The notes beneath the pieces were generated by a model, which had not been told where the DNA came from, did no database searches, and saw nothing but the letters and a program-made list of their open reading frames with translations. The translations under genes were made by a program, and so were the position numbers. Positions 2,711 through 19,948 of a stretch of DNA of 21,194 nucleotides are shown here, one piece after another (position 1 is the stretch's first letter; each line of letters opens with the position of its first letter). Source of the stretch: a virus; the IMG/VR virus record IMGVR_UViG_3300039207_000002, positions 1 through 21,194 of that record, one strand, 5' to 3'.

Positions 2711-2729
2711 CCCTGATCGGAGACCTCAT

Positions 2730-3524
2730 ATGACCCTCTTCACGCGCACCTACGCGCTGGAAGACGTCTCCATCCGCTCAGCGGCCCAAGGAGGCGACGG
2801 CCGGACCGTAGACGCCTACTGCGCCGTCTTCGACACACCCGCAGAGGTCAACAACCGGACCGAGGGCAACTTCAACGAGGTCATCCGCCGCGGAGCCTTC
2901 AAGAAGACACTCGAGCAGAACCGAGACAAGCTAATCGTTCTGTTCAACCACGGCAAAACCCTGTACGGCACCCCCTCCGAGCGGTTCGCGATGACCCTCG
3001 GGAAGTGCATCGACGCCCGCGAAGACCAGCGGGGAGTGTTCACCTCCACCCGCTACAACCGCTCCACCCTCGCCGACGAGGTGCTCGCGGGAATCGAGAA
3101 CGACGAGATCACCGGGCAGTCCTTCACCGGCTCCTTCGTCCGCTCCGACCCACTAACCCGCGGCGCCATCCGGTCCAAGCCCGACGGCACCCTGGCAACC
3201 GTGACCCGGACGGAGATCTCCATGCGGGAGTACGGCCCCAGCATCATCCCCGTCTACAAGGACGCCGCCATCGTCGGCGTCCGCGCTGAGGAGATCGCCG
3301 ACCTCCTCGTCAACCTCGACCCCGCACTACGGGCCGAGCTCCTCCAGATCATCTCGGAAACCAGCACCCGCCCTCATGGCGCGCCGCTGCCAGCCGAGCG
3401 TTCCGACGCCGCCCTCCCTCAGGAGAGCACCTCGGGCGACCCCGCCGCACTCGCGGCGGAACTCGCAGCCCAGTCCTGGGCTGTCGTCCGCAGGGCACTT
3501 CACCTGAAGGGAATCAAGCCATGA
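2730..3524 (+). CDS. HK97-family prohead protease
   Basis: A 264-residue protein. ATG 2730 is chosen because GGAG (2719-2722) sits 7 nt upstream, and the start gives the family's typical N-terminal strand. The family (peptidase U35, herpesvirus-assemblin fold) cleaves the capsid delta domain and itself inside the prohead. Visible features are the nucleation region FNEVIRRGAFKKTL (residues 48-61), the catalytic His in LFNHGK (H74), the probable nucleophile Ser in ITGQSFTGSF (S131), and the EISMREYGPSIIPVYKDAAI segment (about 163-182) with a conserved acid. The C-terminal 60 residues are a Pro/Ala/Ser linker and a helix, probably a scaffold-like or self-cleaved tail. It overlaps the capsid gene by ATGA, which fits coupled synthesis. 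Confidence 0.93.
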   Translation: MTLFTRTYALEDVSIRSAAQGGDGRTVDAYCAVFDTPAEVNNRTEGNFNEVIRRGAFKKTLEQNRDKLIVLFNHGKTLYGTPSERFAMTLGKCIDAREDQRGVFTSTRYNRSTLADEVLAGIENDEITGQSFTGSFVRSDPLTRGAIRSKPDGTLATVTRTEISMREYGPSIIPVYKDAAIVGVRAEEIADLLVNLDPALRAELLQIISETSTRPHGAPLPAERSDAALPQESTSGDPAALAAELAAQSWAVVRRALHLKGIKP

Positions 3525-4990
3525 GTCGTCTCGACGACATCAACGCCAGGCTCGCGGAGATCCAGACTGATCTCCTCGCGCTCGAGAGCACCGAGGCCAG
3601 CCGCAGTGCTGACCTGTCCACCCGCACCGCCGAGGAGACGGCCGCATCGACCGCTGACGCGACCCGCTCCAACGAGCTCCTCGACGAGTTCGAGGCGCTC
3701 ACCGCCGAGGCCGTCCCGCTGCTCGCCCACCGGGCCCGCGTCGAGGCCGTCCGTACCGCCAGCTTCATCCCGAGCAACCGCGAGCGGGGTAGCCAGGACG
3801 ACGGCGGGAACACCGGCCGGACGCGGAACATCTACGACATCGGGCACCTGCGGAACAACCCGCTGAACGACAGCGACACCGTCCGCTCCGAGCTGATCAG
3901 TCGCGCCTACGACGCCATCGAAGACCTCCCCAAGAGGATCAGCGACGACGTCAGGGAGCAGGCGACCCGCACCCTGGAAACCGTCAACGGCGACCAGGCC
4001 GCAGTCGCCCTGCACCTGCTCACCACCGGCGCCCCCGCATACCGGTCGGCGTTCCGCAAGGTCGTCAAGGGCGAGCAGGTCGGCTGGCTTCAAGGCGAAG
4101 AGGCCGCCGCGATGCGTGCCTCGATGAGCCTCACGACCACCGCCGGCGGCTTCCTGCTCCCGTTCGAGCTGGACCCGACGATCATCCTCACCAACGCCGG
4201 GACTTCCACCGGTATCCGGTCGGTCGCCCGGGTGGAGCAGGTCACCCAGAACGTCTGGCACGGGGTCTCCTCGGCCGGCGTCACCGCCGAGTGGACCTCA
4301 GAGGCATCGGAAGCCACCGACGCCTCCCCGACGTTCGCGCAGCCCACCGTGACCTGCTACAAGGCCGACGCCTACCTTCAGGCGTCCTTCGAGTTCCTCC
4401 AGGACTCCAACATCGAGTCGCAGGTCGGCATGCTCGTCGCCGACGCCAAGGAGCGCCTCGAAGCCACCGCGTTCGCCACCGGTAACGGCACCTCCCAGCC
4501 CAAGGGCATCGTCACCGCCCTCCAGGCAGTCACGGCATCGCGGACTGCTGCCAACACGAACGCGTCGCTGGGTGTTGTCGACGTCTACGCCCTGGACAAC
4601 GCCCTCGGCCCGCGGTGGCGCGAGAACGCCACCTTCGTCGCCAACAAGGGCATCTACAACCTGGTGCGCCAGCTCGGCACGTCGGCCTACCAGACGTTCT
4701 GGGTCGACTTCGGCGGCGGGATCCCGGCGCAGCTCATCGGCTACCCGACGAAGCAGGCCTCGGACATGACCGCTTCGCTGTCCAGTGCAACGGCGTCCAA
4801 CGACGACGTGCTCATCCTTGGCGACTTCAAGCAGTACCTCATCACTGACCGCATCGGCATGTCGATGGTGTACGAGCCCCTGGTGAAGGGCTCTAATGCC
4901 CGTCCTATCGGTTCTGTAGGATGGTACACCACTTGGCGAGTGGGTGCCGACGCGCTCGTGGCAAGCGCATTCCAGATGCTCCGCGTCTAA
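3521..4990 (+). CDS. HK97-fold major capsid protein
   Basis: A 489-residue protein with ATG 3521, overlapping the protease stop. Residues 1 to about 80 form a charged coiled coil (LDDINARLAEIQTDLLALE, then LLDEFEALTAE), the delta/scaffold domain removed by the protease. A variable linker follows to about 200. The HK97 fold starts near TTTAGGFLLPFELD (204-217), with later hallmarks DAYLQASFEFLQDSNI, RLEATAFATGNGTSQPKGI (the E-loop/A-domain G-x-G-T-x-x-P-x-G signature) and the closing GWYTTWRVGADALVASAFQML. The 120-residue spacer between the coiled coil and the fold is long. The TAA stop lies inside the left arm of a long inverted repeat that may end or stabilise the capsid mRNA. Confidence 0.95.
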   Translation: MSRLDDINARLAEIQTDLLALESTEASRSADLSTRTAEETAASTADATRSNELLDEFEALTAEAVPLLAHRARVEAVRTASFIPSNRERGSQDDGGNTGRTRNIYDIGHLRNNPLNDSDTVRSELISRAYDAIEDLPKRISDDVREQATRTLETVNGDQAAVALHLLTTGAPAYRSAFRKVVKGEQVGWLQGEEAAAMRASMSLTTTAGGFLLPFELDPTIILTNAGTSTGIRSVARVEQVTQNVWHGVSSAGVTAEWTSEASEATDASPTFAQPTVTCYKADAYLQASFEFLQDSNIESQVGMLVADAKERLEATAFATGNGTSQPKGIVTALQAVTASRTAANTNASLGVVDVYALDNALGPRWRENATFVANKGIYNLVRQLGTSAYQTFWVDFGGGIPAQLIGYPTKQASDMTASLSSATASNDDVLILGDFKQYLITDRIGMSMVYEPLVKGSNARPIGSVGWYTTWRVGADALVASAFQMLRV

Positions 4991-5052
4991 TCTAGCATCC
5001 GTCCGTAGGGCCTGCTGGTACTTGCAGGCAGGCCCTACGGATGCTAGATTAG
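4987..5052 (+). terminator. Long inverted repeat at the capsid stop: hairpin/attenuator overlapping a promoter
   Basis: The left arm 4987-5015 and right arm 5028-5052 pair over 25 bp without a mismatch, apart from a 4-nt bulge made by a CCGT duplication in the left arm. The loop is 5016-5027. The left arm contains the capsid TAA stop, and the right arm and loop contain the promoter elements of the HNH gene. No U-tract follows, so a classical intrinsic terminator is not certain. RNA 3'-end protection, attenuation or sequestering of the downstream start region are alternatives. Confidence 0.75.
5022..5050 (+). promoter_or_regulatory. Promoter for the HNH endonuclease gene, leaderless type
   Basis: TTGCAG (5022-5027), a 17-bp spacer and TAGATT (5045-5050) are followed by 6 nt and then ATG at 5057. 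Both boxes are partial matches to sigma-70 consensus but the spacing is ideal. The AGGAG at 5051-5055 is only 1 nt from ATG, too close for a working ribosome binding site, so initiation on a leaderless mRNA is likelier. The -35 lies in the hairpin loop and the -10 in its right arm. Confidence 0.5.
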
Positions 5053-5056
5053 GAGC

Positions 5057-5873
5057 ATGGAAACCACCTGCAACGTCCCAGACTGTGAACGTCTGATCGT
5101 GGGGCGGGGGATGTGTTCCCCGCACTACCAGCGACTCAAGGAGGGGCGCTCCCTCACGGAGCCGCTCCGTCCTCGCCGCAAGAGCGCCGAGCCGCCGCCA
5201 CCGTGTTCGGTCGACGATTGTGAGAACGCCGCGAAGTCGAAAGGCATGTGCTCGAAGCACTACCACCGGCTGACCCGCAACGGCGACGTGTCGGTGACCA
5301 AGCGTCTTGCGCGCTACACCGATCCCTGCAAGGCCCACGACTGTGACCGCAAGGCGAAGGCGAACGGTTACTGCACGGGCCACAACGCCCGATTCAAGGC
5401 CGATTGGGTGGTCGTGGACTCCACCCCTCTGGGTGTGATGAGCAGCGCCCCGAAGGAACCCTGCACCGTCGACGACTGCGAGAAGCCTCGCTACTTCCGA
5501 AACGCTCCGTACTGTGCGATGCACACCAAGCGTCTCGCTATGACGGGTGCACTGGACAAGCCGACGCGATACCGCAAGGACGGCGTTGGCTACATCAACG
5601 CTGAGGGCTATCGGGTCATGTCGGTCAACGGCGTGGCCCGCAAAGAGCACTCGCTAGTCATGGAAGCACCTGGGCCGCCCCCTCGTTGAGGGCGAGAACG
5701 TCCACCATCGCAACGGATTCCGTGCCGATAACCGCCTCGAGAACCTCGAGCTCTGGTACGTGTCGCAGCCCGCCGGTGCCCGCGTCGATGACCTCATCGC
5801 CTACGTGACGACGTATCACCCCGCCGAGGTTGAGGCGGCTCTCTCAGCAGGACGGTCTAAGCCGCCGTCCTAG
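5057..5873 (+). pseudogene. HNH homing endonuclease with four zinc fingers, split by a frameshift
   Basis: The first frame (5057-5689) gives 210 residues. It has four tandem fingers of pattern C-x4-C-x9/11-C-x2-H: C5/C10/C20/H23, C50/C55/C65/H68, C91/C96/C106/H109 and C136/C141/C153/H156. Then comes the beginning of an HNH domain (GYINAEGYRVMSVNG, KEHSLVME). The frame then runs out of homology (APGPPPR) to TGA 5687-5689. The rest of the HNH domain is in the +1 frame from 5667 to TAG 5871-5873: HLGRPLVEGENVHHRNG, DNRLENLELW and a helical tail. The family motif is continuous only if one base is skipped near 5663-5667, so a 1-nt insertion or 2-nt deletion is likeliest. Repaired, the protein would be about 272 residues. 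In the first product the catalytic HH and N are missing. Programmed +1 slippage at the C-run 5678-5682 or an assembly error are alternatives. Confidence 0.85.
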
Positions 5874-5908
5874 GCACCCTCGGTCTTCCTCTATGGGCCG
5901 AGGGTGCC
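5873..5908 (+). terminator. Perfect 11-bp hairpin after the HNH gene
   Basis: GGCACCCTCGG (5873-5883) pairs with CCGAGGGTGCC (5898-5908) over a 14-nt loop, starting at the last base of the HNH remnant's stop. There is no U-tract. It could weaken transcription entering the glycan cassette. Confidence 0.5.
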
Positions 5909-5960: not shown

Positions 5961-7400
5961 GTGTCCAAGCGCCATGTTGGTAAGCCCGGCCCACGCCAGT
6001 CCCCCCGACCCCGCACTGCTGCTGATGTGTTCGCTACCGAACAGGTCATCGTCGCCTACCTCCACCCTGCTGATCATGTGGGGGCGGCGTTCCACAAGTC
6101 GATGCTGGACCTGATCGTGGCCGACTCGTTCCAGCCGCGCCGCACTGTTGTCGGCACCCTGGACATGGCGTCCGGGGCGAACATCACCACGGCGCGCAAC
6201 ATCATCGTGCGCGACTTTCTGCGCACGAAGGCCGACTGGTTGTGGCTGATCGACGCGGACATGAAGTTCCCCGCCGACACGCTGGACAAGCTGCTCACCG
6301 TCGCCGATAAGACTGAGCGTCCCATCGTCGGCGGCTTGTGTTTCCGGGTGACCCAGGTCGGTGACGACCTGACGCTCACCCCAACGCTCTACGGGCTGAA
6401 CGACATGACCCCGCCACGCACGGTCGTGTACCACGACTACCCGCCGGATGCGCTCGCCGAGGTCGCGGCGACCGGCGCAGCGTGCCTACTGGTACACCGC
6501 CGGGTGTTCGAGACGATCGAAGCATCAGGGCACTTCCAGAAGCCGTGGACATGGTTCGCCGAGACTCTCTATGTCGAGTACGACGACGTGATCTCCGAGG
6601 ACATCACGTTCTGCCTGCGTGCCCGTAAGTGCGGGTTCCCGGTGTTCGTCCACACCGGCATCGAGATCGGTCACCAGAAGTCGATCGTGGCGACCCCTGC
6701 GCTGTTCCAGCACACGAAGCCCCGCATCCCATCCTTCGTGGTGATCCCGGGCCTTGACCGGCACCAGATGACCGCGGACCTGATCTCCGACTTGCAGGGT
6801 CAGGGCGCGGAGATCCTGCTGTACGACAACGGCTCCGATCCGGCGTATGACTTCGACGGTTGCGAGGTCATCGACGCCAAGGGCTGGGGCCTGCACGAGA
6901 TGTGGGCAGCCGGGATCGCCCGAGCCCGCGAAAACGCTCCCGTCTGTGACATCGCGATCCTGAACAACGATCTGCGGGTCGGTCCGGACTTCTTGCGGCT
7001 GCTCTCCGGCGGTTTACGGGCACGGGAAGAGGTGTGGATCTCCTACCCCAACGTCCACGGCGCAGCTCTGGCGCCCGGTCAGTGCGCGAAGACAGGTGGT
7101 CCTGGTCAGGGACAGTCGCTGTCGGGGTACGCCTTCATGATCCGTGGTGAGTCCGACCTGGCCGTCGATGAGGGTTTCGGCTTCTGGTACGGCGACATCG
7201 ATCTGGAGATGCAGGCCAGGGCCGCCGAGAAGGCTGTCGTGACGGTCGGCGGCTGCGAGGTCGAGCACCTGGAGCCGACGTTGTCGACACGGGGTGAGCG
7301 GCTCGAGCAGGCTCATGTGGACGAGAAGTTGTTTGCGGCCAAGTGGGACCTTGACCCGGAGGCGCTGTTCCTGGCGAAGAATCCGGGGTGGGGCGAATGA
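5961..7400 (+). CDS. Two-domain GT-A (GT2-like) glycosyltransferase
   Basis: A 479-residue protein with GTG 5961 and GAGGAG about 6 nt upstream. It contains two glycosyltransferase-like units in tandem. Unit 1 (about 28-245) has SGANITTARNIIVRDFL, then LWLIDADMKF with the DxD-type metal/nucleotide-sugar site (DAD, 98-100), and ISEDITFCLRARKCGFPVFV (211-230), the GT2-type acidic catalytic region followed by a conserved HTGIEIGH. Unit 2 (about 257-440) has LLYDNGSDPAYD (287-298), ILNNDLRVGPDF (333-344) and GFGFWYGDIDLEMQARA (405-421) with HLE near the end. Two active sites may add two sugars in sequence. There is no membrane segment or signal peptide, so it should act in the cytoplasm. It is the first gene of the tightly packed cassette that follows the capsid gene. 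The substrate is not readable from the sequence. Confidence 0.82.
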   Translation: MSKRHVGKPGPRQSPRPRTAADVFATEQVIVAYLHPADHVGAAFHKSMLDLIVADSFQPRRTVVGTLDMASGANITTARNIIVRDFLRTKADWLWLIDADMKFPADTLDKLLTVADKTERPIVGGLCFRVTQVGDDLTLTPTLYGLNDMTPPRTVVYHDYPPDALAEVAATGAACLLVHRRVFETIEASGHFQKPWTWFAETLYVEYDDVISEDITFCLRARKCGFPVFVHTGIEIGHQKSIVATPALFQHTKPRIPSFVVIPGLDRHQMTADLISDLQGQGAEILLYDNGSDPAYDFDGCEVIDAKGWGLHEMWAAGIARARENAPVCDIAILNNDLRVGPDFLRLLSGGLRAREEVWISYPNVHGAALAPGQCAKTGGPGQGQSLSGYAFMIRGESDLAVDEGFGFWYGDIDLEMQARAAEKAVVTVGGCEVEHLEPTLSTRGERLEQAHVDEKLFAAKWDLDPEALFLAKNPGWGE

Positions 7401-8014
7401 CCGTCGGCTGCGTCGTCGTGTCGGACCGCGGCGACTTGTACCTGCCACAGTGTCTTGAGGCGCTAGCTCCGCCGATGCAAGACTGGACCGTTCCGTTTCA
7501 CGTCGTTGATGATCGTGAGCACAAGCTCGGTCTCGCGGGAGCTGCTCGGGCAGCCTGGCAGATCGCTCTCGATGAGGGCTGGGACTTCTTGCTGCACTGG
7601 GAAGAGGACTTCCTCCCCAACGAGCTGCTGCCGCTCGAGAACATGGTCGAGATGCTCGAGATCGACCGAGTCCGCCCCGATGGTCCGCAGCTGGCGCAGA
7701 TCGTCCTGAAGCGGCAGCCGTGGTCGACCGAGGAGATCGCCGCCGGCGGGATCATCGAGAAGGACCCCGACGACTACCGTGACGTCTTCATACTCGGCTT
7801 GCCGATGGTGGTGCATCGCCGGATCTTCTCCCTGAACCCATGCCTGATCCCACGGTGGGTACTTGAGCTCGGCTGGCCTGACAGCAACGAGGCCGGGATG
7901 ACCGAGCGACTGTGCGTCGACCCGAATGTCCTGTTCGCCTACTACGGCAAGCTCGACGACCCGCCGCTGGTGACGCATGTTGGGACCGTCAGGGGGACCG
8001 GATGGTCGCTGTAG
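7397..8014 (+). CDS. Small GT2-like glycosyltransferase
   Basis: A 205-residue protein with ATG 7397 overlapping the previous stop as ATGA. The opening MTVGCVVVSDRGDLYLPQCLEAL, then FHVVDD (34-39), is a GT-A-type first strand and nucleotide-binding start. WDFLLHWEEDF (62-72) occupies the DxD position, with acidic EED in place of DxD. A later MVVHRRIFSLNPCLIPRW and a C-terminal HVGTVRGTGWSL are reminiscent of small actinophage glycosyltransferase-like proteins. It is short for a complete GT2 enzyme (usually 230-300 residues), so it may be a minimal enzyme or rely on the neighbours. Confidence 0.65.
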   Translation: MTVGCVVVSDRGDLYLPQCLEALAPPMQDWTVPFHVVDDREHKLGLAGAARAAWQIALDEGWDFLLHWEEDFLPNELLPLENMVEMLEIDRVRPDGPQLAQIVLKRQPWSTEEIAAGGIIEKDPDDYRDVFILGLPMVVHRRIFSLNPCLIPRWVLELGWPDSNEAGMTERLCVDPNVLFAYYGKLDDPPLVTHVGTVRGTGWSL

Positions 8015-8562
8015 TCGGCGCCGGCGGGCACGGGCATGACATCGCCGCGATCATCAATGCCCTCGGCGGCGCCGCGAACTTCTACGATGACGAGCCCGGC
8101 CGCGGCATGGCCATCAAGCCGGGCGTTGGCCTGGTCGGGTACGTCGTGGGGATCAACGACCCCGCCCAGCGACAGTCGATGGTCGACAGGCTCAATGACG
8201 CCGGGTCCAAGGCTCAACGTCCGATCATCCACCCGACCTCGGTCGTGGGTGTCGGTGAGCCCTCCCACGGATGTGTCGTGGGGCCGCTGTCCAGCCTGCT
8301 CTACAACGTGGTTCTTGCTGAGCACGTCCACGTCGGTGCCGGTTGCCATCTGACCCGCTGCACGGTCGGGGCTTTCACGACGATCTCGCCCGGCGTAACG
8401 ATCTGCGGGGACGTCAAGATCGGCTCCGGTTGCCTGATCGGTGCCGGGGCGGTCATCAAGAACCTCGTCACCATCGGCGACAACGTCACCGTCGGCGCCG
8501 GCGCTGTCGTGGTGAAGGACCTCGAAGACGGTGTGACGGTCAAGGGAAATCCGGCGCGATGA
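8002..8562 (+). CDS. PglD/NeuD-like sugar O/N-acyltransferase (hexapeptide repeat)
   Basis: A 186-residue protein with ATG 8002, GGGGG 6 nt upstream and a 13-nt overlap with the previous gene. Residues 1-75 form a small Rossmann-like nucleotide-sugar-binding domain starting VAVVGAGGHGHDIAA, typical of PglD/NeuD acyltransferases. Residues about 77-186 are a left-handed beta-helix of hexapeptide repeats (TISPGVTICGDVKIGSGCLIGAGAVI, TIGDNVTVGAGAVV) ending VTVKGNPAR. Family members transfer acetyl from acetyl-CoA to an amino or hydroxyl sugar as trimers. The usual catalytic His-Asp pair just before the C-x-V/I-G turn appears to be Thr118-Arg119 here, with a His two residues earlier (H116), so activity or chemistry may differ. 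Confidence 0.82.
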   Translation: MVAVVGAGGHGHDIAAIINALGGAANFYDDEPGRGMAIKPGVGLVGYVVGINDPAQRQSMVDRLNDAGSKAQRPIIHPTSVVGVGEPSHGCVVGPLSSLLYNVVLAEHVHVGAGCHLTRCTVGAFTTISPGVTICGDVKIGSGCLIGAGAVIKNLVTIGDNVTVGAGAVVVKDLEDGVTVKGNPAR

Positions 8563-8753
8563 GCGAGGAAGAGGTGCTCCTCGGGAAGCCGTTGCTGATC
8601 GAGCCTGGCTGCACCTATGTGGTCCAGGTTCAACGCTGCCTATCGTTTGAGATGGCGCGGGCGATACTCGAACGACTCCAACTTGCTGCGCCAGGCTCCC
8701 GCTTCATCATTCTCGATGACCGGATGCAGATCGCCCGGGAGTCCGAGCGATGA
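8559..8753 (+). CDS. Small conserved-type phage protein, unknown function
   Basis: A 64-residue protein with ATG 8559 (ATGA overlap) and again ATGA with the next gene, so it is embedded in the coupled array. The core PGCTYVVQVQRCLSFEMARAI, then APGSRFIILDDRM, predicts a beta-alpha-beta unit. I recall short phage proteins with this layout near structural genes, but no function for them. It has no metal-binding or catalytic motif. It may be a small accessory subunit of the cassette or a virion protein. Confidence 0.6.
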   Translation: MSEEEVLLGKPLLIEPGCTYVVQVQRCLSFEMARAILERLQLAAPGSRFIILDDRMQIARESER

Positions 8754-9337
8754 GCCCGGAGTTGCTTGCCCTGGCCGATGCCACGAAGGGCTGGCTGCAC
8801 CCCTCGGAGGGTATGGCCCTGTACGACGCCGCCGCGAGCTGTAGCGGTCCCTTCCTAGAGGTCGGGACCTACTGCGGGAAGTCGACGGTGTTCCTCGGCG
8901 CGGCGGCGAAGGCGAACAAGACGGTGCTGTTCACCGTTGACCACCATCGAGGCTCGCCCGAGATGGCAGCAGATCGTGAGTGCCACGACCCTGAGGTTCT
9001 CGATGCGTGGGGCGATCACGACACGCTACTGACGTTGCGCCGGACGCTGCTACTGGCGGACCTTGAGTCGACGGTGATCCCCGTCGTGGGCTCAACCGCG
9101 ACTGTTGGTCCGCACTGGACGACGCGCGTGGGGTTCGCCTTCATCGACGCGGCACACGACGACGACGGAGTGATGCTCGACGCGACGACCTGGGGGCGTC
9201 ACGTTCGCCGCGATGGGATCATTGCTTTTCACGACACGACCATCCCGGGAATCGCTAGGGCTGTTGAGCACTTGCTCGCGACCGGGTTCAATGACGAGGG
9301 CACCGTCGACACACTTCGACTGCTGCGCCGCGAATGA
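8750..9337 (+). CDS. Class I SAM-dependent methyltransferase (Methyltransf_24 type)
   Basis: A 195-residue protein with ATG 8750 and GGGAG 8 nt upstream. Motif I is FLEVGTYCGKSTVFLG (35-50) for SAM binding, the acidic motif II region is LFTVDHH (60-66), and FIDAAHDDDGVMLD (131-144) is the characteristic F-I-D-x-x-H strand of this family. IAFHDTTIPGIARAV follows near the C terminus, as expected for Methyltransf_24. Related enzymes O-methylate sugars or small molecules. Its place between an acyltransferase and glycosyltransferases suggests methylation of the same glycan (inference). Confidence 0.85.
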   Translation: MSPELLALADATKGWLHPSEGMALYDAAASCSGPFLEVGTYCGKSTVFLGAAAKANKTVLFTVDHHRGSPEMAADRECHDPEVLDAWGDHDTLLTLRRTLLLADLESTVIPVVGSTATVGPHWTTRVGFAFIDAAHDDDGVMLDATTWGRHVRRDGIIAFHDTTIPGIARAVEHLLATGFNDEGTVDTLRLLRRE

Positions 9338-10053
9338 TTGTCGCGGTCAGCATGTTCCGTGACGAGGCTGACGTCGCACAGCACGTCGTCGAGCACCTGC
9401 TTGGCGAGGGCGTCGACAAGATCGTGGTCGCCGACAACCGCAGCACGGATGGGACGCGGGAGATCCTCGAGTCCCTGCCCGTCACGGTGGTCGATGACAG
9501 TGAGGTCGGCTACTACCAGTCAGCGAAGATCACCCACCTCGTCCACGAGCACTGCACCACTGGCGACTGGGTGATCCCCTTCGACGCCGACGAGCTGTGG
9601 ACCGGCGACACAGACACCCTCGCAGGCGCCCTCGCAACGGCAACCGCGGATGTCCTCATCGCTCCGGTCTACGACTACATCCCGCAGCCTTCAGACGACC
9701 CTGACGAGGCTGATCCGTTCACCCGGATCAGGTGGCGCCTGGACCGCCCCGAGCAGTTTCCCGTCATGGCCTTCCGCTACCACCCCGAAGCGGTCGTCAA
9801 GCAGGGCGCGCACGACCTCGTTCACCCGGGAGTTCGCAGCCCGGGGCTGTGGGTGGATCACTTCCAGTATCGCTCCTGGCAGCAGTTCTGCCGCAAGCTC
9901 CGCAACGGGCGGGAAGCCTACGCATCCTCCAACCTCCCGGCATGGGAAGGAGCGCACTGGCGCACCTGGGGAGCCCTCGACGATGAGGCCCTCCGTGTCC
10001 ACTGGGATGCGCTGCTCGCTACGCCGGGGCTGGTGTACGACCCGTGTCGGTGA
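9334..10053 (+). CDS. GT2-like glycosyltransferase
   Basis: A 239-residue protein with ATG 9334 overlapping the methyltransferase stop and no separate ribosome binding site. It shows the GT-A features MIVAVSMFRDEADVAQHVVEHLL, IVVADNRSTDGT (30-41) for nucleotide binding and WVIPFDADELW (79-89) with the D-A-D metal site. The C-terminal part (HDLVHPGVRSPGLWVDHFQYRSWQQFCRKL) carries the conserved His and a basic helix found in Glyco_tranf_2_4-type enzymes. It is cytoplasmic. Donor and acceptor are unknown. Confidence 0.85.
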   Translation: MIVAVSMFRDEADVAQHVVEHLLGEGVDKIVVADNRSTDGTREILESLPVTVVDDSEVGYYQSAKITHLVHEHCTTGDWVIPFDADELWTGDTDTLAGALATATADVLIAPVYDYIPQPSDDPDEADPFTRIRWRLDRPEQFPVMAFRYHPEAVVKQGAHDLVHPGVRSPGLWVDHFQYRSWQQFCRKLRNGREAYASSNLPAWEGAHWRTWGALDDEALRVHWDALLATPGLVYDPCR

Positions 10054-10595
10054 CAGCGTGCATCGTCAGCCTGCCCGAGCGTCACACGCTGCTCGCTGAG
10101 GCGATGGCGAGCGTCCGCGAGCAGACCGTGCAGCCCGAGGCGGTCCTGATCGGCATCGACCCCCGCATTTGTGGCGAGGCCGAGAACTGCAACCGCCTGA
10201 TCCGGGCAGCGTCGACCGAGTGGGTCGCGTTCCTGCACGACGATGACCTGTGGAGACCGAACCATCTCGAGCAGTTGCTGGCGCACTCCGCGGATGCTGA
10301 TGTGGTCTGCGCCTCCTTCGACCTCGACGGCCGGCCAGAATCGAGCATCGAGCCGCACCACTGCGACTACGACGACCTGACACGCACGAACTGGATGTGG
10401 CCCGGCTGCGTGATGGCCCGCAGGGATGCCCTGCTGGACTGGGGTGGCTTCATCCAGGCCCCACACGGTCAATGGGTCGACTGGACGTCCTTCAAGTCCT
10501 GGCTGGCTCAGGGGGCCCGCTTCGCTTGCTCGCATGAACGCACGGCCATCTACCGCTTCGGGCATGGCTTCGGCAACGGATCGTGGAAGGGCTGA
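10044..10595 (+). CDS. GT2-like glycosyltransferase (short)
   Basis: A 183-residue protein with GTG 10044 overlapping the previous gene by 10 nt. The start is kept because MSVTACIVSLPERHTLLAEAM supplies the first GT-A strand. SVREQTVQPEAVLIGID and VAFLHDDDLWRPNHLEQL (61-78) give the typical helix, strand and D-D-D metal site. The later GCVMARRDALLDWGGF is the usual acceptor-side strand. At 183 residues it lacks the C-terminal extension of many GT2 enzymes. It is the last gene of the cassette, with the next gene starting 1 nt downstream of its stop. Confidence 0.8.
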   Translation: MSVTACIVSLPERHTLLAEAMASVREQTVQPEAVLIGIDPRICGEAENCNRLIRAASTEWVAFLHDDDLWRPNHLEQLLAHSADADVVCASFDLDGRPESSIEPHHCDYDDLTRTNWMWPGCVMARRDALLDWGGFIQAPHGQWVDWTSFKSWLAQGARFACSHERTAIYRFGHGFGNGSWKG

Positions 10596-10596
10596 C

Positions 10597-10782
10597 ATGG
10601 ACACCGACCTGGGCACTCCGGCGTTGCTGAACTATCAGCCGCGCGCCATCCTCGACGGTGAGCAGACCCTGGAACTCATCTCCCTGGACTCGGCCAACCG
10701 GAACGTCCACCAGTTCCGGCTCACTCCGCAGACCGAGTTCCGGTTCATCGACGACGGCGGCCCTGAGCTCGGGGCCGGCTGA
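10597..10782 (+). CDS. Small hypothetical head-tail region protein
   Basis: A 61-residue protein with ATG 10597, a GGAAGGG site just upstream, and a 1-nt overlap with the connector gene (TGATG). It is acidic overall and includes LNYQPRAILDGEQTLELISL and HQFRLTPQTEFRF, which predict a few beta strands. I recognise no family. Its place directly before the connector suggests a virion or head-completion role. It links the glycan cassette to the neck genes without a gap. Confidence 0.55.
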   Translation: MDTDLGTPALLNYQPRAILDGEQTLELISLDSANRNVHQFRLTPQTEFRFIDDGGPELGAG

Positions 10783-11423
10783 TGGCCGACACCTTGGACA
10801 TCGTGACGCTGGCGGAAGCCAGGAGCGCGGTGAACATCAACACCGCCGGCTATGTCGCTGATGACACGCGGCTCGCCGCGTTTGTCACGGCGATCTCTAG
10901 GCACTTCGACAACCTCGTCGGCCCGGTCGTGCAACGTACCGTCACTGCTGAGGTGCAGGACGGCGGCCGGAACTTCATCACCCTCGACCTGGCCCCGATC
11001 AGCGCCGTCACCTCGATCACCGAATACTCAGGGACCGCCGCGACCGTCCTGGCATCGGCTTCCAACACCTCCCAGCCCAGCAACGGGTACCTGCTTGATC
11101 CGTGGCGGGACGGTTTCTATAAGGGCCGGATCTACCGCCGGAGCGGTAACACCAACGCTTCCTTTCCTGACGGCCGGGGCAACGTCGTCATCACCTACAC
11201 CGCCGGCCGCTACGCCAACACAGCCGCGGTCGACCAGCGGTTCAAGACCGCCACCGAACTGACCTTGGCGAACGTGTTCCGCCGTGAGCAGCGCCCCGTC
11301 AACCCCGGCTTCGGTGGACCGGAGGCCATGAACGACGTGGTCGCCACTGCCTTCCCAGGCTATCTGGTCCCGAACGCCGCCCTGGCCTACCTCGTCGACG
11401 ACATCATCGGCAGCGTGGCGTGA
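10782..11423 (+). CDS. Head-tail connector (HK97 gp6-like adaptor)
   Basis: A 213-residue protein with ATG 10782. The helical N-terminal part (VTLAEARSAVNINTAGYVADDTRLAAFVTAISRHFDNLVG) and the following strand VVQRTVTAEVQDGG with LDLAPISAVTSITEYSG are typical of the gp6/SPP1 gp15-type adaptor fold. In those proteins a helix bundle forms a ring under the portal. The later VVITYTAGRYANTAAVDQRFKTATELTLANVFRREQ is the family's C-terminal helix. It seals the filled head and provides the tail docking surface. It overlaps the tail-terminator gene by 4 nt. Confidence 0.85.
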   Translation: MADTLDIVTLAEARSAVNINTAGYVADDTRLAAFVTAISRHFDNLVGPVVQRTVTAEVQDGGRNFITLDLAPISAVTSITEYSGTAATVLASASNTSQPSNGYLLDPWRDGFYKGRIYRRSGNTNASFPDGRGNVVITYTAGRYANTAAVDQRFKTATELTLANVFRREQRPVNPGFGGPEAMNDVVATAFPGYLVPNAALAYLVDDIIGSVA

Positions 11424-11944: not shown

Positions 11945-12919
11945 ATGCTCTCTCCGCAGCCGACCTACAGGTCATTCTTGGCGGTTGCCAAGGAGGCCAC
12001 GCGCGGAACCGCCGTGACCGCAACCGACGCGATCGCAGTCCGCACCGTCACGCCCCAAGACATCGTCATGCCCCTGTGGGACAAGGGCCTGCGCGGGTCG
12101 ATGGCCGAGACCTACGGGCACGTCCCCGGCCCGACCTACTCCACGTTCGACTTCGGTGGGGACGTGTTCGCCGACACCATCGGCTATCCGCTGTCGGCGC
12201 TGCTCGGGAACGTCGCGACCACCGGCGGCGGCGCCTCGCCCTTCACCCACACCTTCGCCCTGTTGAACTCCGGTGACGGTCAGCCGACCTCGATGACCCT
12301 GACGGACTTCGACGTCACCAATGCTCGGCAGTATGCCGCGTGGCTGTGCTCGGAGGTGGCGTTCAAGTTCAACGGCGACGGACTGCTGGAGTACACCGCG
12401 AAGGGCATGTCGCTGGCCTCCCAGACCTGCGCGACAACCTCAGCGACCTTCTCCGCCGTCAACCCGGCCTTCGGCTGGGGGATCGCGACGACGGTCGGGT
12501 CTTCGACGGTCTCGACGCTGATCGACGGTGAGGTCAACATCAAGCGCCCGGTGTCGGCCCTGCACACGGCCGATGGCACCCAGGCGCCCTACAAGATCTT
12601 CGGCGGGGCACTGTCGGTCGACGGCAAGCTGAAGTTCATCATGGAGGACGACTCGCGCCTGTCGGACTTCCTGCTCGCAACCCAGCAGATCCTCGACCTG
12701 AACTTCTCCACCGGGTCGGGTGCAACCGCCACGCAGGTCAAGCTCCACATGACCAAGGCGCTGTTTGAGGTCGCGACGATCGACCGCGGTGGGGACTACG
12801 TCGCGATCGACTGCACCTTCCAGGCGATTGCGAACAGCACCGACACGGGCACGTCCTCTGGCTACTCGCCCATCAAGGTCACGACGCAGTGCTCCAAGAC
12901 CGGCGGAACCTACGCCTAG
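11945..12919 (+). CDS. Major tail tube protein
   Basis: A 324-residue protein with ATG 11945 and AGGAG 7 nt upstream. It starts SFLAVAKEATRGTAVTATDAIAVRTVTPQDIVMPLWDKGLRGSM, a typical siphophage tube-protein opening. A strand-rich body follows (STFDFGGDVFADTIGYPLSALLG, TSMTLTDFDVTNARQYAAWLCSEVAFKFNGDGLLEYTAKGMSLAS). The W-x-C-S-E-V-x-F-x-F-N-x-x-G-L-L-E-Y-T region is the beta-barrel signature of tube proteins in this group. It polymerises into the hollow tail tube around the tape measure protein. Length is normal to slightly long for the type. Confidence 0.88.
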   Translation: MLSPQPTYRSFLAVAKEATRGTAVTATDAIAVRTVTPQDIVMPLWDKGLRGSMAETYGHVPGPTYSTFDFGGDVFADTIGYPLSALLGNVATTGGGASPFTHTFALLNSGDGQPTSMTLTDFDVTNARQYAAWLCSEVAFKFNGDGLLEYTAKGMSLASQTCATTSATFSAVNPAFGWGIATTVGSSTVSTLIDGEVNIKRPVSALHTADGTQAPYKIFGGALSVDGKLKFIMEDDSRLSDFLLATQQILDLNFSTGSGATATQVKLHMTKALFEVATIDRGGDYVAIDCTFQAIANSTDTGTSSGYSPIKVTTQCSKTGGTYA

Positions 12920-15856: not shown

Positions 15857-17434
15857 GTGGTAGCCGTCGACCTGTTTGGCCCGCAGGATCTGCTCAACGG
15901 GCTCACGACCAACCCGATCCTGATGGCGAACACGTCCGTGACGGTCACGAACGCAGCGGACAACAGCGCCGCCACGCTCTACACCGACAACACCGGCACG
16001 TCGACGACCACCAACATCATCAGCACCAACAGTCAGGGACTGCTGTCGTTCTATGCCGTCGCCGGCTGGTACAAGCTCGCCTACACCAATGCGATCGGGG
16101 CGCAGACCCGCACGGTCGAGGTCGGCGGGGCGCACGATAGCGGCTCTTACCCAGCGAGGCCCGCCGGGTCATCTGCGACTGCCGCACCCATCCCGATGCT
16201 CAACGTGGTGGACTTCGGAGCCGATCCGGCCGGCGTGGCGAACAGCACAGCGGCGATTCTGGCCGCATGTCAGGCAGCCTTCACCACCTTGCAGCGGGGC
16301 AACAGGCCTGCCTACGGGGTATGGGTCCCTGCCGGGCAGTACAAGATCAACTCCTTGCTGGACTTCTCCACCCTGACCGCGACCGGCTTGCAAGACGATC
16401 TGGGCGCGTCGAACGTGTCCGGGTTCCACTTCCTGTGCGCCCCCGGCGCGGTGTTCGTCTGGTCAGGGGGGACTAACTCCAACGCGGTGAAGATCGCCCC
16501 ACCATCGGGCATGACTTACTTCACGCAATGCACCTTCCGGTTCGGCTCGATCATCGACAACGCCCGAGTAGCAGGAACAAACGGGCTGTACGTGACGGGC
16601 CTGCGCCAGTCAGTCGTTGAGGCTGAGGACGTGTTTCACTTCGGTGGGCACGGTGTGTACCTGGCGGGGACCGCAACCCAGGTGTTCAACAACGTCATGC
16701 GGTTCGGGGAGCTATCGACCTGCTCCGGCTACGGCATCGCCACGGACGGCGGCGGTGGCGTCTCGGATGGTGTGCAGGGTAACGAGATTCACGTTCAGCG
16801 CCCGGTGAGCAACACTCTTGGCGGGATCTGCCTGGACGTTGCTGGGACCGGGCAGCAAAGCAAGTGGAACACCTGGCACATCGGCGCGGCCGAGTTCAAC
16901 ACCGGCCCTGGCATCGTCGACAAGTGTGGGCTCAACAACTTCCTGGTCGCTAACAGCAACAGCAACAGCCTCGGGTACGAACTGATCTCCCCGAGCAATG
17001 GACCCTCTACGGTCGTCGGGTACGTCACGGACGGCATCAACCTTCACGGCCAAGCCTGCGCGGTGACCAACACCGGAGTGCACGAGCAGGCAGCGGTCAA
17101 GCACCTGATCGCCTCCGGGTCCGCCCCCACCATCGCAGTCGGATCAGCAGCAGGCACAGGAGCAGCAGCAGCAGCCATCACGGGTAAGGACTCCGGTGGG
17201 CTCATTCACATCACCATTGGCACCGCCCCCGGCACGGGGACATTGTTCACTGTCACGTTCAACCAGCCGTTCGTCGTCGCCCCGAGCGCTCCCCCTGCGA
17301 TGACCCGCGCCAGCCCAGGCGGTTACACGGCCGACACGCTGTACGTAGCGGCTCTGTCCGCAACTCAGTGGGCCGTCACGGCAACAGCGGCGATCACCGG
17401 GGACGTCTGGCTCTACTACGGGCCCCCGACCTAG
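15857..17434 (+). CDS. Tailspike with pectin-lyase (right-handed beta-helix) fold
   Basis: A 525-residue protein with GTG 15857 and AGGAG (15846-15850) 6 nt upstream. Residues about 28-80 (SVTVTNAADNSAATLYTDN to LLSFYAVAGWYKLAYTN) form a small beta-sandwich found at the head of many actinophage minor tail proteins, possibly the virion anchor. Residues about 115-420 begin LNVVDFGADPAG, the classic Pectate_lyase_3 opening, and continue as parallel beta-helix coils. Residues about 421-525 (APTIAVGSAAGTG, GTAPGTGTLFTVTF, ending DVWLYYGPP) are a separate beta domain, probably for trimerisation or receptor binding. Such spikes bind and often cut host surface polysaccharide. The position between tape measure and Dit-like genes is unusual. 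Confidence 0.85.
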   Translation: MVAVDLFGPQDLLNGLTTNPILMANTSVTVTNAADNSAATLYTDNTGTSTTTNIISTNSQGLLSFYAVAGWYKLAYTNAIGAQTRTVEVGGAHDSGSYPARPAGSSATAAPIPMLNVVDFGADPAGVANSTAAILAACQAAFTTLQRGNRPAYGVWVPAGQYKINSLLDFSTLTATGLQDDLGASNVSGFHFLCAPGAVFVWSGGTNSNAVKIAPPSGMTYFTQCTFRFGSIIDNARVAGTNGLYVTGLRQSVVEAEDVFHFGGHGVYLAGTATQVFNNVMRFGELSTCSGYGIATDGGGGVSDGVQGNEIHVQRPVSNTLGGICLDVAGTGQQSKWNTWHIGAAEFNTGPGIVDKCGLNNFLVANSNSNSLGYELISPSNGPSTVVGYVTDGINLHGQACAVTNTGVHEQAAVKHLIASGSAPTIAVGSAAGTGAAAAAITGKDSGGLIHITIGTAPGTGTLFTVTFNQPFVVAPSAPPAMTRASPGGYTADTLYVAALSATQWAVTATAAITGDVWLYYGPPT

Positions 17435-17941: not shown

Positions 17942-19948
17942 GTGCCGATCAGCCTGCCTGGCAGTCCGCTGAACTGGCCCATCGTCACCGACCGGATGGA
18001 CGTCACGAACGATCCAACCTCAGTCACGACGACCTGGACCACCCTCGCTGACAGCGCTGGGCACTCGCTGGTCAAAGCGTTCTCTTCTCACTCCGGTCGT
18101 ACCCATGAGCTCGGACGCACCGACACTGGCACCGCCACTGTTGAGGTCGAGAACAGTGACGGCAGGTTCGACCCGACGAACACAGCGTCGCCGCTGAACA
18201 GCGCCGGCAAGTCCCTGCTCCCGATGCGCCGCTACAACCGGCAAGCCACCTGGAACGGTGTCACCTACGACATCTGGACCGGCAACGTCGAACGGTATCC
18301 GCAGTCCTGGGCCGAGTCCGGCAACCTCGGGTCTGTCGCGATGACCTGCGTCGACGCCCTCGCCCCGCTCTCGCAGATCACCCTCAAAGGTCCGGTGCAG
18401 GCCGAGCTTCTCCTCCAGGCACCCACCGCCTACTACCCGCTGCGAGACGAAGCCGGGTCCACCTCCGCCGCGTCGATCGCCGCCACCCCGCAACCGTTGG
18501 CGCGGATCTTGCACGGCAAAGCGACGGGGGGTATCTCGGAGTTCGGGTCGGTCGCTGGGAGTGGCAACCTGTCCGGGGACACCGGAACCGGACTGACCCT
18601 GACCCCGACGCTGAACACCCTCGGGGTGAACCTCGCCGGCAACTACCTCCGAACCGCCGACGCCTCTGGCGGGCCGATGCTGGCCCTCGGCGGCTTCTCT
18701 GTGAGCGGCTGGTTCAACGGCCTCGACACTGCCACGAACTTCGACTCCCAACTGTTCCTGCAATCCAGCGCCGCCTCAGTGCAGCAGGCGCAGATCTACC
18801 TCAACCCGATCACCGGCGGGTACTCCCCGATCTTCCAGCTCGGCGACGGCACCACCAACATCATCGTCAGCGGCACCACCCTGATCTCCGACGGACTGTG
18901 GCATCACATCGGATGCACCCTGGCCGCCGACAACAAGACTGCCAAGCTGTACGTCGACGGGGTACTACAGGCCACCACCGTGGGTGCGTTGGCGCTGGTC
19001 TGGAAGCCAGGTGTGAGCCAGATCTGGGGCGGCCTCCTCACCCCGGCCTACTCCTACGGGTCCTCGTTCCTGCACGGCACCCTCGCGCACCTGGCGATCT
19101 TCAAGGGGACCGTCCTGACCGGCGCGCAGATGCTGACGCAGTTCACGTCCGGGGCGAACTTCGTCGGCGACACCTCCGGTGTCCGTGCCGCCCGCTACCT
19201 GAACTATGCGAACTGGCCCACCGCCGCACGAGCACTAGACGCCGGGAACTCCACCATCGGCGGTGGAACTGTCACGGGTGAGTCCGTGTCCCAGGCACTG
19301 CTGGACCTCACCGAGTGGGAAGCCGGCTGCCTGTACGTCGCCCCGGATGGGAAGCTCACGTTCAAGGCTCGCAGCGCCCGGTTCAACGCCAGCAGTGTCG
19401 CAACCTTCGGCGACGGCGCCGGCGAGCTCCCTTACCTCGGTGACATCCTGTTCGACTTCGACACCGACGAGATCTACAACGACATCCAGATGACCCGCAC
19501 CGGCGGGATCAGCGTCGAGATCCAGGACACCACCAGCCAAGGGCATTACTACCCGCGGAGCCTCCCGCAGACCGTGGGGCTCAACACCGACGCGGAGACC
19601 ACCGACCGGGCGAACTTCCGACTCGGCTACTACAAGGACCCGCACTTACGACTTGCCCGCCTGACCATCGAGCCCTCTTCCAACCCTGCCCTGTGGCCCA
19701 CCGCCCTCGGCAGGGTCATCGGGGAGCGCGTCACCGTCAAACGCCGGCCGCTCGGCGGTGCCCCGGTGATCTCGGCGGACTTCTTCATCGAGGCTATCGA
19801 CCACAACGTCATCCCCGGCTCGTGGAAGACCACCTACCTGCTAAGCCCGGCGGGGTCGCAGATCAGCGACTTCTGGCGCATCGAAGACCCCGTGTACGGC
19901 TACATCGAAGGCTCGGGCGGCCATGTGTCGTACCCAGTCGCCTACTGA
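17942..19948 (+). CDS. Dit/Tal-like minor tail protein with inserted LamG domain
   Basis: A 668-residue protein with GTG 17942 and a weak GGGTGAG site. Residues about 55-150 (GRTHELGRTDTGTATVEVENSDGRFDPTN, then WNGVTYDIWTGNVERYPQSW and VAMTCVDALAPLS) match the N-terminal distal-tail part of actinophage minor tail proteins. Residues about 160-405 are a concanavalin/LamG-like jelly roll: AYYPLRDEAGSTSAA, GGFSVSGWF (250-258), DGLWHHIGCTLAADNKTAKLYVDGVLQ (317-343) and the final HGTLAHLAIFKGTVLTGAQM. Residues about 410-668 return to the baseplate-hub-like part (ALLDLTEWEAGCLYVAPDGKLTF, DEIYNDIQMTRTGG, GERVTVKRRP, FFIEAIDHNVIPGSW). It should form the tail tip. The LamG domain is probably exposed for carbohydrate or surface binding. 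Confidence 0.85.
   Translation: MPISLPGSPLNWPIVTDRMDVTNDPTSVTTTWTTLADSAGHSLVKAFSSHSGRTHELGRTDTGTATVEVENSDGRFDPTNTASPLNSAGKSLLPMRRYNRQATWNGVTYDIWTGNVERYPQSWAESGNLGSVAMTCVDALAPLSQITLKGPVQAELLLQAPTAYYPLRDEAGSTSAASIAATPQPLARILHGKATGGISEFGSVAGSGNLSGDTGTGLTLTPTLNTLGVNLAGNYLRTADASGGPMLALGGFSVSGWFNGLDTATNFDSQLFLQSSAASVQQAQIYLNPITGGYSPIFQLGDGTTNIIVSGTTLISDGLWHHIGCTLAADNKTAKLYVDGVLQATTVGALALVWKPGVSQIWGGLLTPAYSYGSSFLHGTLAHLAIFKGTVLTGAQMLTQFTSGANFVGDTSGVRAARYLNYANWPTAARALDAGNSTIGGGTVTGESVSQALLDLTEWEAGCLYVAPDGKLTFKARSARFNASSVATFGDGAGELPYLGDILFDFDTDEIYNDIQMTRTGGISVEIQDTTSQGHYYPRSLPQTVGLNTDAETTDRANFRLGYYKDPHLRLARLTIEPSSNPALWPTALGRVIGERVTVKRRPLGGAPVISADFFIEAIDHNVIPGSWKTTYLLSPAGSQISDFWRIEDPVYGYIEGSGGHVSYPVAY

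Follow-up and report, generated by a model that had tools for sequence, protein, structure and literature searches.

A conserved glycosyltransferase cassette behind the capsid gene of uncultured phages that probably sugar-coats the phage head

The stretch of DNA analysed here, which we call the window, comprises the 21,194 bases of a virus record (IMG/VR IMGVR_UViG_3300039207_000002) that we take to be a fragment. Between its major capsid gene and its head-tail adaptor gene lie seven open reading frames (ORFs), at 5961-10595, that concern us. In order they encode GTA, GTB, ACT, U64, MT, GTC and GTD: two glycosyltransferases, an acyltransferase-like protein, a 64-residue orphan, a methyltransferase and two more glycosyltransferases (Table 1). 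An initial annotation described a seven-gene glycan cassette between the capsid and neck genes, and all seven ORFs are indeed there. It also described four glycosyltransferases in a row. The enzymes are present but they are not consecutive, and because GTA holds two glycosyltransferase domains the cassette has five such domains rather than four. The head genes run protease, capsid, an HNH endonuclease gene, the cassette, a 61-residue ORF and the adaptor. The cassette opens with a GTG start codon at 5961, with GAGGAG just ahead of it. Five of the six internal junctions are 4-nucleotide ATGA or GTGA overlaps (7397, 8559, 8750, 9334 and 10050); the other, between GTB and ACT, is a 13-nucleotide overlap at 8002. 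The 61-residue ORF begins one base past GTD and its stop overlaps the adaptor start. The overlaps and this continuity suggest that the cassette is one translationally coupled unit extending into the structural genes.

Table 1. Features of the head region of the window, from protease to adaptor
Feature	Position	Strand	Evidence
Prohead serine protease (Peptidase_S78)	2727..3524, start approximate	+	PF04586 E 4.9e-14
Major capsid protein, HK97 type, proposed acceptor	3521..4990	+	PF05065 134.5 bits, phrog_10
Hairpin directly past capsid gene, 29-nucleotide arms	4987..5052	+	-48.7 kcal/mol for 4985-5060, z -7.7
HNH endonuclease gene, frameshifted near 5668	5057..5873	+	phrog_5351 E 1.9e-37
Second hairpin, ahead of cassette, perfect 11-nucleotide arms	5873..5908	+	z -5.1
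GTA, predicted tandem two-domain glycosyltransferase	5961..7400	+	N half phrog_1574, PF00535, invariant D98/D100
GTB, predicted GT-A-fold glycosyltransferase	7397..8014	+	phrog_3047
ACT, left-handed beta-helix sugar acyltransferase fold, PglB/VioB/NeuD-like, without catalytic His	8002..8562	+	Hexapep, TIGR03570
U64, 64-residue orphan, translationally coupled on both sides	8559..8753	+	
MT, class I S-adenosylmethionine methyltransferase (Methyltransf_24)	8750..9337	+	PF13578, 6g7d
GTC, family 2 glycosyltransferase	9334..10053	+	PF13704, DxD motif FDADE
GTD, short family 2 glycosyltransferase, HDDD	10050..10595	+	PF00535; weak relative of Che8 gp108
61-residue ORF between GTD and adaptor, no assigned function	10597..10782	+	
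Head-tail adaptor, downstream cassette border	10782..11423	+	phrog_442 E 1.1e-13

GTA is the enzyme on which most of our argument turns. It matches PF00535 at 27.8 bits, above the cut-off of 23.3 (all Pfam scores were judged against the curated cut-offs), and its residues 29-243 match positions 13-233 of the 240 in phrog_1574 (E 3.2e-17), a full-length profile match to a family annotated as of unknown function. The C half resembles family 2 glycosyltransferases. D98 and D100 are invariant across 22 relatives. Folds were predicted for GTA and GTB. The AlphaFold2 model of GTA (predicted local distance difference test score, pLDDT, 83; predicted template-modelling score, pTM, 0.58) resembles two-domain glycosyltransferases such as COLGALT1 and chondroitin polymerase in Foldseek. 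Its low whole-chain template-modelling (TM) scores arise because the two domains pack uncertainly. One domain, which we take from the model to be the N half, reaches a TM-score of 0.71 by target length against STIV A197. GTB has no Pfam match. It matches the galactosyl transferase family phrog_3047 (3e-11), its E69 and D71 are invariant among relatives, and its model (pLDDT 86) finds STIV A197 as best fold match, with the PBCV-1 capsid glycosyltransferase also listed. GTC matches PF13704 at 51.5 bits (cut-off 27.5) and has GmaR as its sole solved match; GTD matches PF00535 at 40.7 bits (cut-off 23.3). All four fit the family 2/GT-A glycosyltransferases, each with a DxD-type motif: D98/D100 in GTA, E69/D71 in GTB, FDADE in GTC and HDDD in GTD.

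The other three products are of unequal clarity. MT matches the full PF13578 profile at 71.7 bits (cut-off 26.3), as the initial annotation of a Methyltransf_24 enzyme would have it. Its nearest solved relative is 6g7d (E 5e-35), which we take to be M. hassiacum MeT1, a mannoside 1-O-methyltransferase. MeT1 methylates mannosides (PMC9883506). U64, called an unknown before, is still an orphan: Pfam, PHROGs, NCBIfam and PADLOC offer no meaningful match to it. ACT had been described as PglD/NeuD-like. Its fold and architecture bear this out: it matches Hexapep at 59.6 bits (cut-off 27), its best solved match is PglB 4m98 with VioB also close, and it shares the two-part architecture of the NeuD/PglB/VioB acetyltransferases. 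It differs from them in the score of its best family, TIGR03570 (117.6 bits, under the cut-off of 160.8), and in an altered histidine region. No gene for nucleotide-sugar synthesis was recognised within the window, so the sugar donors would come from the host. PADLOC returned no defence match and Rfam no match.

The evidence that ties these enzymes to the phage head comes from scans of the IMG/VR collection. Each scan keeps the best 80 loci and so favours near relatives. Single-sequence scans with the capsid and with GTA gave no matches, and alignments were required. Two GTA scans, one with GTA relatives and one with a distant GTA subfamily, were run without any capsid input. The first gave at least 560 matches among 600 candidates, and a homologous capsid gene lies upstream on the same strand in 74 of its 81 loci, with a median gap of about 0.33 kb. 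In six of the remaining seven the contig ends within 2.2 kb upstream of GTA; the seventh, L149, has 5.3 kb upstream of GTA and no recognised capsid. The second scan found the capsid upstream on the same strand in 78 of 78. Combined, a capsid gene stands just upstream of GTA, on the same strand, in 144 of 151 distinct contigs (8 were shared). A third scan, seeded with GTC and therefore blind to both GTA and the capsid, recovered GTB in 71 of 80 loci, ACT in 58 and a GTA-profile match in 76. Loci that show the window-type capsid family read capsid-GTA-GTB-ACT-GTC, as in the window, or depart from this order only slightly; L259, for example, has ACT and GTB exchanged. A cousin GT-GTB-GTC module is found next to other head proteins. 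It follows phrog_283 heads in 11 contigs and a phrog_1650 head in one contig, mostly at a distance of no more than about 1 kb, an adjacency derived from contig ranges. With the window's own capsid family, placement beside the head gene is thus common to three head-protein families.

It could be argued that the cassette is unrelated cargo, lodged beside the capsid gene where insertions are tolerated, with no role in the virion. HNH genes do insert behind the capsid too, with or without GTA. However, the capsid-GTA linkage is kept over divergent GTAs (those of the first scan fall into 68 clusters at 95% identity and 48 at 70%), the catalytic motifs are conserved, and GTA status changes rarely. 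A capsid tree of 124 rows has at least 5 such changes, a figure that is rough because sampling is uneven. We give the cargo idea very little credence. Nor is the cassette an insertion private to this phage, as the earlier description implied, since the same linkage recurs as a lineage-wide trait. The comparison it had called for, with related phages lacking the cassette, is available: six database relatives (Eyre, Mcklovin, Xula, Jflix2, Sbash and prophiGD02-2) have no glycosyltransferase between capsid and adaptor. The first capsid scan, with GTA in 3 of 48 records among the matches listed, gave an early impression of rarity, which was dropped when closer capsids turned up.

Almost none of 50,697 GenBank phage records contains the module, which may explain why it went unnoticed. 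A GTA match in S-CAM9 does not adjoin the capsid gene, and one in Rugosimonospora (L175) has no capsid match and no recognised phage neighbours. A prophage-like region of Nocardioides sp. LHD-245 (L176:3236-9148) carries a portal, a protease-capsid fusion, a probable glycosyltransferase and, at 7992-8771, a phrog_1574 gene in its head-tail region. Some relatives come from an Actinomycetota bin and from Nocardioides, and the capsid resembles those of actinophages; these points hint at a host among the Actinomycetota.

What follows GTA is much less constant. A NAD-dependent epimerase lies behind it in 17 loci, a GTD-like gene in 11 and ACT in 6 (the window counted in the last two). Other accessories are a UDP-sugar dehydrogenase family, a sugar C-methyltransferase, an FkbM methyltransferase, an FAD oxidoreductase and extra glycosyltransferases; in L094 GTA stands alone with no other glycan enzymes behind it. 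Two loci (L152 and L161) have a tandem pair of GTA copies behind a single capsid gene. Collagen-like (Gly-X-Y) proteins adjoin GTA at L012:4219-5148 and L174:7069-7443, and a small conserved protein does so in many relatives.

The sequences show, then, that the glycan enzymes are encoded in an operon of overlapping genes among those for the head, that the capsid-GTA linkage is conserved over divergent phages, and that the glycan genes behind GTA vary. The same block stands behind the capsid gene in well over a hundred uncultured phages, and so it probably serves to coat the phage shell with sugar. We believe the cassette is likely to be a late-expressed capsid-glycosylation locus. We infer late expression, the capsid as acceptor, GTA as priming enzyme and O-methylation of the glycan as follows. 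The cassette genes would be expressed late, at the time when the head proteins are made. GTA would act as a soluble enzyme with tandem GT-A domains, using host nucleotide-sugars through D98-x-D100 and attaching the first sugar or sugars to the major capsid protein, or else to an abundant protein of the head. The chain would then be lengthened by GTB, GTC and GTD and capped or decorated by MT through O-methylation, and ACT, if active, would modify a sugar. The outcome would be a short, strain-variable glycan on the phage head; exchange of the genes behind GTA would alter the glycan, and the priming enzyme would stay matched to the capsid. The glycosyltransferases, MT and variable glycan genes of the cassette and its relatives agree with the initial suggestion that a sugar is built and decorated rather than a single residue added, and the 144 contigs and the module behind two other head-protein families agree with its suggestion that the capsid is the acceptor. 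A broader idea could, in our opinion, equally be right or wrong: that phrog_1574/GTA is an unrecognised class of capsid-priming glycosyltransferase at the head of a swappable glycan island, which lies behind the capsid gene in a large group of uncultured phages and keeps the priming enzyme while the enzymes that build and decorate the chain vary, giving diverse sugar coats to heads, with a related module serving other capsid types.

The main acceptor could instead be another virion protein: a decoration protein, the tail tube or a fibre protein. Mycobacteriophage glycans occur on both capsid and tail tube (PMC12619734), the window's tail tube gene (11945-12919) lies within the same gene block, and both the collagen-like ORFs that flank GTA in two loci and the small conserved protein are candidates. 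Yet these candidates come and go, the capsid gene is GTA's constant neighbour, and the cousin module also follows other head-protein families. We regard another main acceptor as unlikely. A search of the capsid sequences for an acceptor signal revealed neither an insert nor a serine/threonine column specific to GTA carriers. A C-terminal tail of 10-11 residues is found in 20 of 70 GTA-positive capsids and in none of 54 GTA-negative ones (NTTAAFTAKAS and NQVAAATALA are examples; carriers include L108, L109, L111, L120, L146 and L162), and it is a possible acceptor in that capsid subgroup.

Two further proposals move the sugar off the virion proteins altogether. The cassette might modify the host surface, in the manner of gtr clusters that bring serotype conversion or superinfection exclusion. 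Glycosyltransferases, acyltransferases and methyltransferases are typical of envelope glycan pathways too, and phage glycosyltransferases can alter host surfaces (PMC10202952). But a family search of the cassette found no GtrA flippase, no bactoprenol-linked membrane glycosyltransferase and no other membrane protein, and the cassette lies inside a late head gene block and tracks the capsid across lineages. This makes host surface modification quite improbable. Modified bases of the phage DNA might be the target, and phage glycosyltransferases can hypermodify DNA (Pyle 2024, as cited in PMC12619734). Against this, the window, itself a fragment, shows neither a pyrimidine hydroxymethylase nor any other gene for base modification, and the module sits among late head genes; we consider it very improbable.

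Returning to capsid glycosylation, several observations weigh against it. Gene linkage alone does not prove that the capsid is the acceptor. In virion-glycosylation loci of the Che8/Corndog/Myrna type the glycan is joined to the C terminus of capsid and tail tube proteins; the window capsid lacks the C-terminal extension. The similarity to capsid glycosyltransferases is at the level of fold only, with TM-scores of about 0.5 to 0.7. The enzyme that is essential in the mycobacteriophages (Che8 gp110/Myrna gp238/Nappy gp244) has no relative among the cassette proteins. ACT lacks the beta-helix histidine of PglB and PglD, their catalytic residue: the window has TR-C where PglB has DHDC, and only the ACT homologues of L010 and L098 retain the histidine. 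The "acylated" glycan of the initial annotation is thus not supported, and acylation by ACT is a weak proposal. Finally, two strong hairpins and the HNH gene separate the capsid from the cassette, and the hairpins may reduce read-through of the capsid transcript into it. Both hairpins lack T tracts and stand out against shuffled sequences; each may be a terminator, a processing site or the trace of a mobile insertion. The first HNH ORF stops at 5689 and the homologous frame continues to 5873, so the gene is either decayed or carries a sequencing error. HNH genes lie behind the capsid in many related loci.

Some other features of the window deserve mention. A minus-strand ORF at 611-1546 contains a LAGLIDADG-like segment (YVAGIIDGEGSI), and its N part resembles a helix-turn-helix; it has no Pfam match at 0.001. 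Fibre-like (Gp80) and glycine-rich proteins at 1148-2531 lie just upstream of the prohead protease, where a portal would be expected. A putative tail spike at 15857-17434, with a weak pectate-lyase-like match, and a large tail protein at 17942-19948, with a concanavalin-A-like lectin domain, may bind or cleave glycans.

Glycosylation of phage virions has been reported only recently, in a few mycobacteriophages, and we believe the arrangement described here is new and extends it. If our interpretation is true, virion glycosylation occurs widely among uncultured phages, gene order alone is enough to recognise it, phrog_1574 gains a testable role, and a variable head glycan becomes a subject for studies of adsorption and host recognition.

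How does the cassette compare with known systems? STIV A197, proposed to glycosylate the STIV capsid, and the PBCV-1 capsid glycosyltransferase are single-domain GT-A enzymes of viruses with glycosylated capsids (PMC10551542); A197 is at or near the top of the fold matches for the N half of GTA, and both are for GTB. However, these are archaeal and algal viruses with other capsid folds, and the likeness is one of fold only. Nearer in sequence is the cluster of GX15bay (MK557849), where relatives of GTB and GTC (37-40% identity) lie next to each other in the order seen here and a methyltransferase gene is close by, although that cluster is upstream of the terminase gene rather than behind the capsid gene.

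The actinophages offer the closest parallels. That their virions can be glycosylated, as the initial annotation stated, holds for Che8, Corndog and Myrna (Freeman 2023, as cited in PMC12363180, PMC11256854 and PMC12619734). Corndog (cluster O) has an O-methyltransferase, two glycosyltransferases and a GlcNAc-transferase (gp35-gp38) between portal and protease, for which capsid modification was proposed in 2015 (PMC4351075); glycosylation of its capsid has since been reported, and gp38 is essential (PMC12363180). As in the window, an O-methyltransferase and several glycosyltransferases lie within the head genes, but by description the order differs, the window cassette running from capsid to adaptor, and an acyltransferase, present in the window, is not mentioned in PMC4351075. 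Che8 (gp108-110) and cluster C phages such as Myrna and Nappy, like the window, encode several glycosyltransferases in one cluster, though in the regions read these genes do not adjoin that for the capsid. We compared the sequences of Che8, Myrna and Nappy directly with the cassette proteins. GTB is related to Nappy (cluster C1) gp241 (3.6e-17) and GTD weakly to Che8 gp108 (4.5e-7), both from loci in which Che8 gp110 or a relative of it is also present. For GTA the one link is a weak profile match to Nappy gp239. Since GTB and GTD have relatives there but the gp110-family enzyme common to those loci has none in the window, we believe the cassette works like the mycobacteriophage loci and is nevertheless a different system, with GTA as the candidate for the missing priming step.

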